In this document: in pieces, positions 236 to 56,345 of the stretch
Numbering within the stretch: position 1 is the stretch's first letter
Layout of the letters: the number at the start of each line of letters is the position of its first letter
Assembly (NCBI RefSeq): GCF_014174375.1
Contig: NZ_JABEQE010000003.1
Span: 186,001-250,000, forward strand
Direction of reading: 5' to 3'
From: Gluconacetobacter asukensis
Lineage (GTDB): Bacteria > Pseudomonadota > Alphaproteobacteria > Acetobacterales > Acetobacteraceae
DNA length: 64,000 nucleotides
Program-made: the position numbers and the translations under genes
The notes under the pieces: generated by a model
The model's input: only the letters and a program-made list of their open reading frames with translations
What the model was told of the DNA's origin: nothing
Database searches by the model: none

Positions 236-2172
<1,937 letters not shown>

Positions 2173-2173
<1 letters not shown>

Positions 2174-2340
2174 GAGCCTGACCGAAAATGTGGGCTGGTG
2201 AGCGAGAGCGGGCCGCCGGGGCCGCGCCCGGCGTGTGTTTCCGAGCATCGGAGCGGAGCGGCCTTGACGGCCGTGAGCACCGAAGCACAGGAAATGCGCG
2301 TCGGATCGCCATCAGCGCGCATTTCCGGTCAGGCTCTGAG
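2173..2340. repeat. Palindromic repeat, copy 1 (abuts the rpoD stop)
   Basis: About 165 bp bounded by inverted ends: AGAGCCTGACCGAAAATG at 2173-2190 and its near-perfect complement at 2320-2337. The first base is the A of the rpoD TGA stop. An inner inverted repeat pairs AAATGCGCG (2292-2300) with CGCGCATTT (2316-2324). In reverse complement the element matches the copy after hslU along its length, including the internal CGGAAACACACG-type segment. The position directly at a gene end suggests a role as terminator or mRNA 3' stabiliser; that role is inference. Confidence 0.9.
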
Positions 2341-18644: not shown

Positions 18645-19094
18645 ATGGCGGAAATCGGCTTCTATCACCTGACGCGGACCAGCGTCGACCAGGCGCTGCC
18701 GGCCCTGCTGGGCCGGACGCTGGAGGCCGGGCGGCGTGCCGTGCTGCGCTGTGGCGACGCGCAGCGGGTCAAGGCGATGGACGAGGCCCTGTGGCGCGCC
18801 ACCGATCCGGTCTGGCTGCCGCATGGCAGTGCCGCGATGGGGCACGGGCCGTTGCAGCCCATATGGCTGACGGCCGGGGACGATGTGCCGAACGGGGCGA
18901 CCTATCTGTTCCTGATCGACGGGGTGAACTGTCCGGACGCGGCCGCGTTCGAGCGGGTGTTCGACCTGTTCGATGGAGGCGACCCGGAGGCCGTGGAAGC
19001 GGCCCGCCGGCGGTGGACCAGTGCCCGCGAGGCCGGGCACACGCTTGTCTACTGGCGGCAGCAGGCAAAAGGATGGACCCGAGGGGCGCGCTGA
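18645..19094 (+). CDS. holC: DNA polymerase III chi subunit
   Basis: Clamp-loader accessory subunit that links DNA polymerase III to single-stranded DNA-binding protein. The 149 residues match HolC: MAEIGFYHLTRTSVDQALPA, RAVLRCGDAQRVKAMDEALW, DPVWLPHG and a C-terminal helix. It follows pepA by 19 bases and is probably cotranscribed. Its TGA stop overlaps the start of a short palindromic repeat copy. Confidence 0.93.
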   Translation: MAEIGFYHLTRTSVDQALPALLGRTLEAGRRAVLRCGDAQRVKAMDEALWRATDPVWLPHGSAAMGHGPLQPIWLTAGDDVPNGATYLFLIDGVNCPDAAAFERVFDLFDGGDPEAVEAARRRWTSAREAGHTLVYWRQQAKGWTRGAR

Positions 19095-19147
19095 GCCTGA
19101 CCGCAAATGCGCGCTGGTGGCGATCCGACGTGCGGTCGGACTCTGAG
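19092..19147. repeat. Palindromic repeat, copy 2 (internally deleted, at the holC stop)
   Basis: A 56-base miniature of the element after rpoD and hslU. The left end AGCCTGACCGCAAATGCGCG begins inside the holC TGA stop, continues with the shared core TGGTGGCGATCCGACG, and then jumps to a right end GCGGTCGGACTCTGAG that resembles the right end of copy 1. The two ends still pair (AGCCTGACCGCA with the complement of TGCGGTCGGACT, two mismatches). About 110 bp of the interior is missing. Confidence 0.85.
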
Positions 19148-53526: not shown

Positions 53527-54117
53527 ATGCAGAACATACACGCGACCCCCCATGATCCAGTCGGCTGGCATGGAACGACGATCCTGTGCGTGCGACGTGG
53601 CGCAGAGGTGGCAATGGCCGGTGACGGGCAGGTGACGCTGGGCGCCACCGTCATCAAAGGCAATGCGCGCAAGGTGCGGCGGATCGGGCCGGCCGGCACC
53701 ATCCTGGCCGGCTTTGCCGGCGCTACCGCCGATGCCTTTACCCTGCTGGAGCGGCTGGAGGCCAAGCTGGAGCGGTTTCCCAACCAGCTTGAGCGCGCCT
53801 GTGTCGAACTGGCCAAGGACTGGCGGACGGACCGCTATCTGCGCCGGCTGGAGGCGATGATGGCGGTGGCCGATCTGGAACGCTCCTTCACCCTGACCGG
53901 CAATGGCGATGTGCTGGAGCCCGAGGATGGCATCATCGCCATCGGTTCGGGCGGCAATTATGCGCTGTCGGCCGCGCGGGCGCTGGCCGAGGTGGACGGG
54001 ATGTCGGCGGCCGAGATCGCGCGGCGGGCGATGCGCATTGCCGGCGAGATCTGTGTTTATACCAACCATTCGGTGATCCTCGAGACGCTGGGTGAAAAGG
54101 GAAGGGAGGACGCATGA
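53527..54117 (+). CDS. hslV: ATP-dependent protease subunit HslV
   Basis: Proteasome-like threonine peptidase that forms a double hexamer capped by HslU. The 196 residues include the catalytic Thr17 after a short propeptide ([16 protein letters not shown]), [40 protein letters not shown] and [14 protein letters not shown]. The ATG lies six bases after the heat-shock -10 element and has no ribosome site, so the mRNA may be leaderless. Its stop overlaps the hslU start. Confidence 0.95.
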
Positions 54118-55433
54118 TGGATATTCCCAACCATTCCCCGCGCGAGATCGTCTCGGAACTCGATCGCTTCATCATCGGCCAGGGAGACGCGAAGCGCGCG
54201 GTGGCCATTGCGCTGCGCAATCGCTGGCGGCGGGCGCAACTGGCCGATGGCATGCGCGATGAGGTCGTGCCCAAGAACATCCTGATGATCGGGCCGACCG
54301 GCTGCGGCAAGACCGAGATCGCCCGGCGGCTGGCGCGGCTGGCGCAGGCGCCGTTCCTGAAGGTCGAGGCCACCAAGTTCACCGAGGTCGGCTATGTGGG
54401 CCGCGATGTCGAGAGCATCGTCCGCGATCTGGTCGAGGTGTCGCTGAACATGCTGCGCGACCTGCGCCGCCGCGACGTGCAGGCGCGGGCCGAGCAGGAG
54501 GCCGAGAACCGGCTGGTCGATGCGCTGGTGGGCGAGGGGGCCTCGGCCGATACCAAGAACAAGTTCCGCCGCATGCTGCGCGCGGGCGAGCTGGAGGAGA
54601 AGGAGGTCGAGATTTCGGTCGCCGATGCCCAAGGCGGCCCCGGCATGGGCGAGATGCCCAACATGCAGCCCGGTACCGTCATCAATTTCTCCGACATGAT
54701 GAAGGGGCTGATGAACCGCGTGCCGCAGCGCCGGCGCATGACCGTTGCGGCGGCGCGCGAGGCGCTGACCCGCGAGGAAGCGGACAAGATGCTGGACAAT
54801 GACGCCCTGGTCGGTGAGGCCGTGGCGCATGCCCAGGATCATGGCATCGTGTTCCTCGACGAGATCGACAAGGTCTGCGCCCGGTCGTCGGAGAGCGGTT
54901 TCCGGGGCGGCGATGTCTCGCGCGAGGGGGTGCAGCGCGACCTGCTGCCGCTGATCGAGGGGACCACGGTTTCGACCAAATACGGGCCGGTGAAGACGGA
55001 CCATATCCTGTTCATCGCCTCGGGCGCGTTCCATATCGCCAAGCCGTCGGACCTGTTGCCGGAATTGCAGGGGCGGCTGCCGATCCGCGTGGAACTCTCG
55101 CCGCTGACGCGCGAGGATCTGCGGCGCATCCTGACCGAGCCGGAACATTCGCTGCTGAAGCAATATACGGCGCTGCTGGGGACCGAGGGGCTGGATCTCG
55201 ATTTCTCGGACGATGCGGTGGATGCGCTGGCGGAGCTGGCCGCCGACATCAACGAGCGGGTCGAGAATATCGGCGCGCGGCGGCTGGCGACGGTGCTGGA
55301 AAGGCTGCTGGAGGATGTGTCCTTCACGGCGGCCGACCGATCGGGCCAGACCGTGCGGATTACCGCCGCCGATGTGCGCGACCGGGTGGAGCCGCTGGCC
55401 AGGAAGGGCGACCTCAGCCGCTTCATCCTCTGA
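54114..55433 (+). CDS. hslU: ATP-dependent protease ATPase subunit HslU
   Basis: AAA+ unfoldase that feeds substrates to HslV. The 439 residues include the start [20 protein letters not shown], Walker [35 protein letters not shown], the intermediate domain (about 110-240), Walker [14 protein letters not shown], sensor [15 protein letters not shown], and the C-terminus SRFIL that activates HslV. Consecutive ATGs at 54114 and 54117 follow GGGAGGACGC. A palindromic repeat begins in its stop codon. Confidence 0.96.
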
Positions 55434-55596
55434 GTTTGTGCCCGTAAACGCGCGCTGGTGGCGATCCGGCGCGCGTTTCCTGTGCTCCGATGCTCACGGC
55501 CCACAAGGCCGCTCCGCTTCGGTGCTCGGAAACACACGCTGGCCGTGCCGCTGCGCGGCACTCTCGCTCACCAGCCCACGTTTCCGGGCACAAACT
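55433..55596. repeat. Palindromic repeat, copy 3 (full length, at the hslU stop)
   Basis: 164 bp bounded by AGTTTGTGCCCGTAAACG (55433-55450) and its near-perfect complement (55579-55596). The first base is the A of the hslU TGA. Inside, AAACGCGCGC (55446-55455) pairs with GCGCGCGTTT (55469-55478), and GTGCCGC (55545-55551) with GCGGCAC (55555-55561). Compared with copy 1, paired positions change together (AAAC/GTTT against AAAT/ATTT; TIR AGTTTGTGCCCG against AGAGCCTGACCG), so pairing is preserved. Confidence 0.92.
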
Positions 55597-55853
55597 GAGC
55601 GGCACAGGGGGCTGGTGGCGATCCGGCGCGCGTTTCCTGTGCTCCGATGCTCACGGCCCACAAGGCGGCTCCGCTTCGGTGCTCGGAAACACACGCCGGG
55701 CGTGCCGCTGTGCGGCACTCTCGCTCGCCAGCCCACGTTTCCGGGCACAAACTTTGTGTTCGGGGCCCCATCGCGGGTCGCGGGTTTCTGGTGAGTGGGG
55801 ATGTGGTTTAGTCTCTGCTCGCCCATTTGATTGTTTTTTGTCAGGTAGCCTTG
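55434..55853. other. hslU-sufE intergenic region
   Basis: 420 bases with no credible gene. Most is occupied by repeat copies 3 and 4. The remaining 100 bases (55754-55853) are T-rich near sufE and must hold its promoter, but I could not define one. The open frames here are repeats read in several frames. Confidence 0.7.
55609..55753. repeat. Palindromic repeat, copy 4 (left end missing, in tandem with copy 3)
   Basis: A second copy in the same orientation, about 95% like copy 3 by eye, starting at GGCTGGTGGCG. The left terminal repeat is replaced by unrelated sequence, while the right end CGTTTCCGGGCACAAACT is intact. The internal GTGCCGC/GCGGCAC hairpin has a one-base loop change. Confidence 0.9.
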
Positions 55854-56297
55854 ATGACTGATCCTTTCGTCACGCCCCAGGATGCGACTGCCGCCGACGC
55901 GATTGCCGCGATCGGTGAGGAGCTGGACCTCTTTGATGACTGGATGCAGCGCTACCAGTACATCATCGAACTGGGCCGCACGATGCCGCCCTTTCCCGCC
56001 GAATGGATGGATGACGCCCATCGCGTGCCCGGCTGCCAGAGCCAGGTGTGGCTGGAAATGACCGCGCGTGACGGTGTGCTGTTCTTTGCCGGGGCGTCGG
56101 ACGCCGCCATTGTCTCGGGCCTGGTGGCGCTGCTGCTGCGGGTCTATTCGGGGCGGCCGGCGGAGGAAATCCTGGCGACCGATTCCGGTTTCCTGCGCGA
56201 TCTGGGGCTGGTGCAGGCGCTGTCGACCAATCGCGGCAACGGGGTCGAGGCGATGGCGCGGGCCATCCGGCATGCGGCAGCACAGGTCGGCGCGTAG
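55854..56297 (+). CDS. sufE: SufE family cysteine desulfuration protein
   Basis: Sulfur acceptor that takes persulfide sulfur from the desulfurase SufS and passes it to SufB for Fe-S cluster assembly. The 147 residues include DDWMQRYQYIIELGRTMPPF, the active cysteine in HRVPGCQSQVWL, SDAAIVSGLVALLLRVYSGR and the C-terminal LSTNRGNGVEAMARAI. The ATG at 55854 is preceded by an in-frame TTG. No suf operon is nearby. Confidence 0.93.
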   Translation: MTDPFVTPQDATAADAIAAIGEELDLFDDWMQRYQYIIELGRTMPPFPAEWMDDAHRVPGCQSQVWLEMTARDGVLFFAGASDAAIVSGLVALLLRVYSGRPAEEILATDSGFLRDLGLVQALSTNRGNGVEAMARAIRHAAAQVGA

Positions 56298-56312
56298 ACA
56301 CGCGGCTTGCGG

Positions 56313-56336
56313 CGACCCGGCGCGCGGGCCGGGTCG
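56313..56336. terminator. Hairpin between convergent sufE and the DUF2272 gene
   Basis: CGACCCGGC (56313-56321) pairs perfectly with GCCGGGTCG (56328-56336) around a 6-base loop. It lies in the 48 bases between convergent genes and could terminate both. No T run follows on either strand. Confidence 0.55.
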
Positions 56337-56345
56337 TGTCGCGGT

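Follow-up and report, generated by a model that had tools for sequence, protein, structure and literature searches.

What kind of sequence begins exactly at the stop codons of several genes, and why do its two ends remain complementary while their sequence changes? The question is raised by the window, the whole stretch of 64,000 nucleotides of the Gluconacetobacter asukensis genome that was analysed, in which an earlier note had described related palindromic elements at or inside the TGA of rpoD, holC and hslU, together with a truncated fourth copy; the coordinates given below confirm that description. The element is a mobile hairpin repeat of about 163-165 bp, of which the genome holds well over a hundred copies. 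The explanation favoured here, to which about even confidence is assigned, is that it forms a MITE-like, non-coding family of the IS5/IS1031 type, whose copies at stop codons are retained in one favoured orientation and work as a 3'-end module.

Copies in the window and spread of the family

The sigma-70 gene rpoD (236-2173, plus strand; Pfam Sigma70 domains and gene call) ends with a TGA at 2171-2173, behind which lies a full palindromic element of 163 bp (2174-2336, family orientation minus; covariance-model match of 179.8 bits), followed by a second TGA (2337-2339, plus strand). The latter is a 3-bp target duplication of the rpoD stop, as judged from empty sites in relatives, which have a single TGA/TCA; the filled site holds one extra C/G beside the duplication. 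The rpoD orthologues of several relatives end with the same terminal TGA without the element, which is present at this site in genome G007 and absent in G004, G005, G010, G001 and G003. This copy is reversed relative to rpoD, an arrangement that is rare family-wide and opposite to that of the hslU and holC copies.

The stop codon of holC (18645-19094, plus strand; Pfam DNA_pol3_chi; stop at 19092-19094) contains the beginning of a 51-bp, internally deleted copy (19093-19143, plus strand), found by blastn within the window, and short copies occupy the same place in G007 and G004. The hslU gene (54114-55433, plus strand; Pfam AAA_2/ClpB_D2-small; stop TGA at 55431-55433), directly 3' of a Proteasome-family gene (53614-54117), is followed by a full element in the usual orientation with the stem GTTTGTGCCCG (55434-55595, plus strand; covariance-model match of 172.5 bits). 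At the same stop, full copies with altered stems are found in G007, G005, G010 and G001, and a 79-bp copy in G004. By sequence, a TGA 3' of the hslU copy (55596-55598, plus strand) is a possible duplication, which has no counterpart beside the G007, G005, G010 and G001 copies. The fourth copy (55611-55753, plus strand) stands in tandem, is 5'-truncated by about the first 20 nt and is 96.5% identical to the first hslU copy over 143 nt; the corresponding place in G007 holds one copy, not a tandem. Head-to-tail arrays of partial copies, in which the later copies lack the outer left stem, occur here at 55611-55753 and also in the stretches L034, L036, L177 and L095, and their layout resembles the outcome of slippage or unequal exchange more than that of insertion. 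Elsewhere in the window, at 56295-56340, the TAG of a SufE-like gene directly abuts another palindrome rich in G+C with a slight resemblance to the element (blastn E 0.002 and 0.007), possibly a decayed copy.

The ends of the window copies differ from one another (GAGCCTGACCG versus GTTTGTGCCCG), with pairing within each copy. The earlier statement that each copy's two ends pair thus holds for the full copies, but not entirely for the short holC copy, in which two stem positions are not Watson-Crick and the arms are 85% complementary. The compensating change reported in the inner helix (AAAC/GTTT versus AAAT/ATTT) is indeed present.

With a covariance model built from 31 copies, at least 139 matches at E 0.01 or better were obtained in this genome, a lower bound because the best 150 of 7042 candidates were scored. 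The element occurs in all 14 Gluconacetobacter genomes, with at least 7 to at least 136 matches per genome among the best candidates scored, and in four of ten genomes from other genera of the family Acetobacteraceae. Its core was recovered from 80 stretches among the matches listed, all of named Gluconacetobacter species. The set of own copies analysed below came from 76 stretches around copies, in which the best 150 of 240 matches gave 137 copies after removal of overlaps. Seven of these, which measured less than 110 nt or lacked complete flanks, were left out of the stop-distance count (130 remaining), and 29 outside 150-170 nt were left out of the stem-pairing test (108 remaining); for other genera, the best 30 loci were read. 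Within the 64-kb window there was no Rfam match at gathering score, in keeping with the earlier remark that no known family fits, and the best match below threshold in the region 2120-2400 had an E of 3.1.

The site of the G007 copy L279:19046 is occupied by a full copy in G. tumulicola and G. aggeris, while in G. asukensis and G. takamatsuzukensis (L315, L308) it holds 14-17 nt resembling a small hairpin remnant.

Target duplication and relation to known elements

The same TNA trinucleotide stands on both flanks in 13 of the 40 best-scoring own copies, in 3 of the next 40 and in 4 of the last 50 (20 of 130 in all), and in 18 of 94 copies from other species. Seven own copies, counted by eye, are absent in another species with alignable flanks; they were drawn from 36 short-gap cases, with tandem-copy matches and one ambiguous case left out. 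A TNA duplication is seen at four of these empty sites, namely rpoD (TCA on the element's strand, with the one extra C), L134 (TGA), L169:15556 and L171:1501, one triplet copy being changed by one base at each of the last two. At the three sites without duplication (L180:1501, L165:10761 and L171:8491), the relative may have lost the element by deletion, or the insertion may be older.

Ends such as GAACCTGTCTGG and GAGCCTGTTTGG resemble GAACCTGTCTAGTATCT, the inverted repeat of ISLrh, a member of the IS1031 subgroup that is inserted at a TGA (PMC12016507); the likeness was judged by eye against this one published repeat and holds for part of the family, many copies having unrelated ends. In the same report, the subgroup is said to prefer TNA and to produce a 3-bp repeat (PMC12016507). 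The element thus has in common with it the ends GA(A/G)CCTG..., the 3-bp TNA duplication and the TGA target, yet it is short, has no transposase gene, contains long inner hairpins and has an outer sequence that is free as long as it is paired. Together, the TNA duplications, the empty sites and the IS1031-like ends mark it as MITE-like, of the IS5/IS1031 type, presumably moved by a transposase encoded elsewhere. The G. asukensis genome has six DUF4096 matches, and both proteins that were checked are IS5-type. One IS5-family element (L339:1378-2274) has unequal ends, GAGCCTGTTTTAGA/GAGTCCGTTTGATA, between TTA and TCA; these also resemble the ISLrh repeat by eye, and this element is a candidate source of the transposase.

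Integron attC sites, whose core sites are RYYYAAC/GTTRRRY, were considered as well, in view of the stop-codon position and strand-specific fold of the element. Several traits are shared with the MITEs known as NEMIS/Correia, ERIC, RUP and YPAL, which, as described in PMC2229807, are also shorter than 200 bp, bear terminal inverted repeats, are mostly intergenic and duplicate their target; their RNA folds have been proposed to act on the neighbouring mRNA, and the effect of ERIC depends on orientation. Most of them are A+T-rich with TA ends (YPAL differs), whereas the present element has a high G+C content, targets TNA, lies directly against stop codons in a single orientation and shows extreme covariation in its stem. 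The E. coli REPs that lie within 15 nt of stops (PMC12306157) are likewise hairpins directly behind the stops of many genes, but the element described here is larger, has a branched fold and duplicates its target in a genome devoid of Y1 transposase matches. Br-REP1 and Br-REP2 of Bradyrhizobium (PMC5082802) are repeated stem-loops in alphaproteobacterial 3'-UTRs, too; the portion of that paper available mentions neither a target duplication nor a fixed join to stops, so that they are set apart by description, not by sequence. A literature search conducted mostly without subscription journals yielded no recognisable description of the family: a word search of the main text of two G. diazotrophicus genome papers found neither "palindrom" nor "MITE", and one paper on acetic acid bacteria mentions MITEs and REPs in general terms. 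Relative to MITEs and REPs, the element is a new variant.

Position and orientation at stop codons

Gene calls around the copies came from a finder for which rpoD and hslU of this genome served as training genes, and which was applied unchanged to the other species and genera. Among the 131 copies flanked by genes on both sides, 111 have the 3' end of a gene on one particular side of the element, here termed left. Of 130 near-full copies, 85 have a stop codon between -14 and +15 nt from the left end, and it is directly adjacent in 43 (40 TGA, 2 TAG and 1 TAA; TGA makes up 274 of the 383 stops in the same stretches). Tabulated by distance, as the earlier note had proposed, the copies are therefore not randomly placed relative to stops. 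The join is also orientation-specific, a feature absent from that note: a stop this close occurs at the left end of 89 of the 137 copies versus the right end of 10, and the corresponding figures are 66 versus 5 (of 95) in other species and 21 versus 3 (of 33) in other genera. Stops at position 0 fall in the flank; those at -8 and at -14 to -12 fall within the element and thus mark where reading ends, not the native stop. The stops of hslU and rpoD are native, since the genes terminate at the same position in relatives that lack the element. Copies with GAGGCTG...CAAAAGCC were at one point taken for a separate "type B" family, a distinction that was rejected, and they were kept in the family because they match the same model and have the same size. 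They are less tied to stops (10 of 19 at the left end and 3 at the right, compared to 65 and 4 of 89 for the main type).

The exact join to stops, which had raised the idea of targeted insertion at 3' ends, is real, but targeting is not required, because the join is largely explained by the 3-bp TNA duplication. In the proposed mechanism, the element would insert at TNA trinucleotides and duplicate them; TGA being both such a target and the commonest stop, insertion there would duplicate the stop and leave the gene whole. Harmless random insertion alone is nevertheless not expected to give the observed pattern, since TNA stop codons represent just 12% of the stop-plus-intergenic TNA sites. Nor can the coincidence of target and stop explain the one-way orientation, because both ends start nearly identically; the two orientations differ in the interior, where the gene strand is C-rich and the other strand G-rich. 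An orientation set by the central base of the target was also considered and was unsupported, the left flank of 45 copies away from stops being TGA in 7 and TCA in 6.

The pattern of stops and orientation probably arises after insertion, as suggested by the seven polymorphic own copies. L134 alone lies at a stop in the favoured orientation, the rpoD and L165:10761 copies have the stop at the other end, and four of the seven are not at a stop's left end. Copies missing in relatives thus mostly lack the favoured arrangement and the bulk of the family has it, which fits retention after insertion, whereby copies in one orientation directly behind a stop would be preferentially kept, perhaps by selection.

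Paired ends, strand preference and possible roles

The outer stem is nearly arbitrary in sequence, with 89 different 12-nt ends in 108 copies. In these copies the ends of the same element pair at 14.84 of 17 positions by Watson-Crick rules, compared to a mean of 9.71 with swapped partners (maximum 10.17 in 200 shuffles). The covariation score observed was reached in none of 500 shuffles, both for 31 own copies and for 95 copies from other species, and among the 59 pairs both-side changes were found in 23 and 38, respectively. The suggestion that a structure, not a sequence, is kept, and that a larger alignment would hold an excess of compensatory changes, is thereby very strongly borne out. 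The mean column identity of the 31-copy alignment is 90%, the variation being concentrated in the outer stem and the loops, and two conserved internal stem mismatches remain uncorrected in most copies. Other alignments, among them the one with the best 150 own matches, had been made by fitting the copies to the model of the gene strand, and the main claim was therefore not based on them.

Stems at orthologous stops vary from species to species, in most cases without loss of pairing. Both arms of the hslU stem read GTTTGTGCCCG in G. asukensis and GTTTGTGGCCG in G. liquefaciens, while G. tumulicola has one arm of each kind and thereby a C.C mismatch, and a single A.C position is present in G010 as well as in G. 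takamatsuzukensis; three of the four relatives with full copies at this site have one unpaired or wobble position among the stem changes. At L182:1501, three distinct stems are found among four genomes. At L214, the two arms are unlike in G. asukensis (GTTTTGG and GTTCAGG), whereas both read GTTTTGG in G. tumulicola and both read GTTCAGG in G. liquefaciens. Over three bands of flank identity, the stem diverges by 9, 17 and 21%, which lies between the core (7, 12 and 11%) and the downstream intergenic sequence (19, 33 and 32%). In the same bands, stem changes affected both sides in 39, 90 and 34 cases versus one side in 36, 44 and 17, the pairs compared not being independent; the comparison excluded a 17-member cluster made up mostly of tandem copies, any copy outside 155-168 nt and every pair with over five non-Watson-Crick positions. 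At some sites, six or seven pairs have changed between flanks that are at least 95% identical, a pattern suggestive of templated correction, block replacement or a second insertion in addition to ordinary substitution. The pairing constraint may thus stem from a role at the 3' end or from hairpin-templated correction, and traces of both are present.

The orientation, the C-rich unpaired sequence and the compensatory change in place suggest a 3'-end role, perhaps in Rho-type termination. A C-rich, G-poor composition is what Rho prefers. The gene strand of the element has 37.7% C and 29.8% G, and 105 of the 106 copies have more C than G on it; at its unpaired positions the composition is 39% C, 33% T, 24% A and 4% G. 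The best 78-nt stretch has a C/G ratio above 1.4 in 98% of 106 elements versus 53% of 57 control gene ends, and the whole-element ratio averages 1.27 versus 1.10 for the 165 nt behind 57 other genes. The C-rich, G-poor stretch behind the stop, a trait of Rho terminators, is therefore present, yet the transcript is tightly folded (either strand forms a very stable fold, that of the gene strand having a mean of -94.7 kcal/mol), and this is unfavourable for Rho loading, strongly folded RNA being a poor Rho substrate. The C-richness is, moreover, inherited by nearly all copies and thus provides no test of selection. The terminator or stabiliser role put forward in the earlier note is plausible, but an intrinsic terminator was rejected because no U-tract follows the stem: position +1 is T in 91 of 130 copies, and at each of positions +2 to +8 a T occurs in 14-26 of them. 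Under the favoured reading, the transcribed element would act as a portable 3'-end module, C-rich and G-poor and usable by Rho once translation ends; its long hairpin would protect the trimmed 3' end, and its outer stem would evolve in place under a constraint on pairing, not on sequence. The fuller scenario, in which a transposon whose target triplet coincides with the stop codon has become a portable gene-ending module for unrelated genes in several genera, occupying their stop codons in one orientation and combining Rho-type termination, 3'-end protection and a pairing-only constraint, is offered as a tentative possibility. If such a function is true, the family is a natural replicated experiment, in which a mobile element spread via a harmless target and then became a 3'-end signal for many genes.

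An ordinary MITE with no host function is a rather unlikely explanation. Insertions would occur at TNA anywhere, harmless copies at stops would survive, reversed or displaced ones would be lost and pairing would be restored by quasi-palindrome correction during replication. It agrees with the absence of the favoured arrangement in six of the seven polymorphic own copies, and with adjacent bases changing together on one arm, as in the L214 copy, whose relatives are matched. The sites with many changed pairs between closely similar flanks also fit such correction. The 89 versus 10 bias is, however, hard to derive from harmlessness alone given ends that are near-identical in sequence; correction has left the two internal mismatches in place, and the arrangement persists in other genera. 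Far less probable still is a family of the REP/BIME kind mobilised by a Y1 transposase of the RAYT type, a thought prompted by the many palindromic copies behind stops, as for part of the E. coli REPs (PMC12306157). A search of the draft G. asukensis genome for Y1_Tnp (PF01797) gave no match, the control search being positive in 5 of 14 genomes, E. coli included, and the TNA duplications and IS5-like ends point elsewhere.

The functional molecule may also be the strand opposite the upstream gene, as RNA or single-stranded DNA, serving either as a structure for mobility or as a block to antisense transcription entering the gene; this is judged improbable. That strand gives the more stable fold in 105 of 108 own copies (by 17.5 kcal/mol on average) and in 82 of 83 from other species, and its unpaired bases are purine-rich, as the complement of the gene-strand counts. 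Mismatches in the outer stem point the same way, an A.C mismatch on the gene strand being a G.U pair on the opposite one: in well-paired copies A.C exceeds G.T by 47 to 22 (95 own copies, after 13 of the 108 with more than four non-Watson-Crick outer pairs were left out) and by 31 to 8 (72 copies from other species). The bias shrinks, however, to 48 versus 34 when poorly paired copies are kept (83 copies), is absent in the inner helices (AC 68, GU 60) and amounts to only 18 to 11 among one-sided events in place. Nothing is known to transcribe this strand in tandem gene pairs, and a C-rich gene strand would yield the same asymmetry.

Even without a function, the many copies, some of them at orthologous stops, allow stem evolution to be traced with its intermediates, and the copies at orthologous stops make selection on pairing directly separable from hairpin-templated correction. 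The outer stem is also the part that is kept in short versions of 51-65 bp, which have lost the inner hairpins (19093-19143 in the window, L292:1429-1493 in G005 and L182:10407-10463) and occupy the same places in several species.
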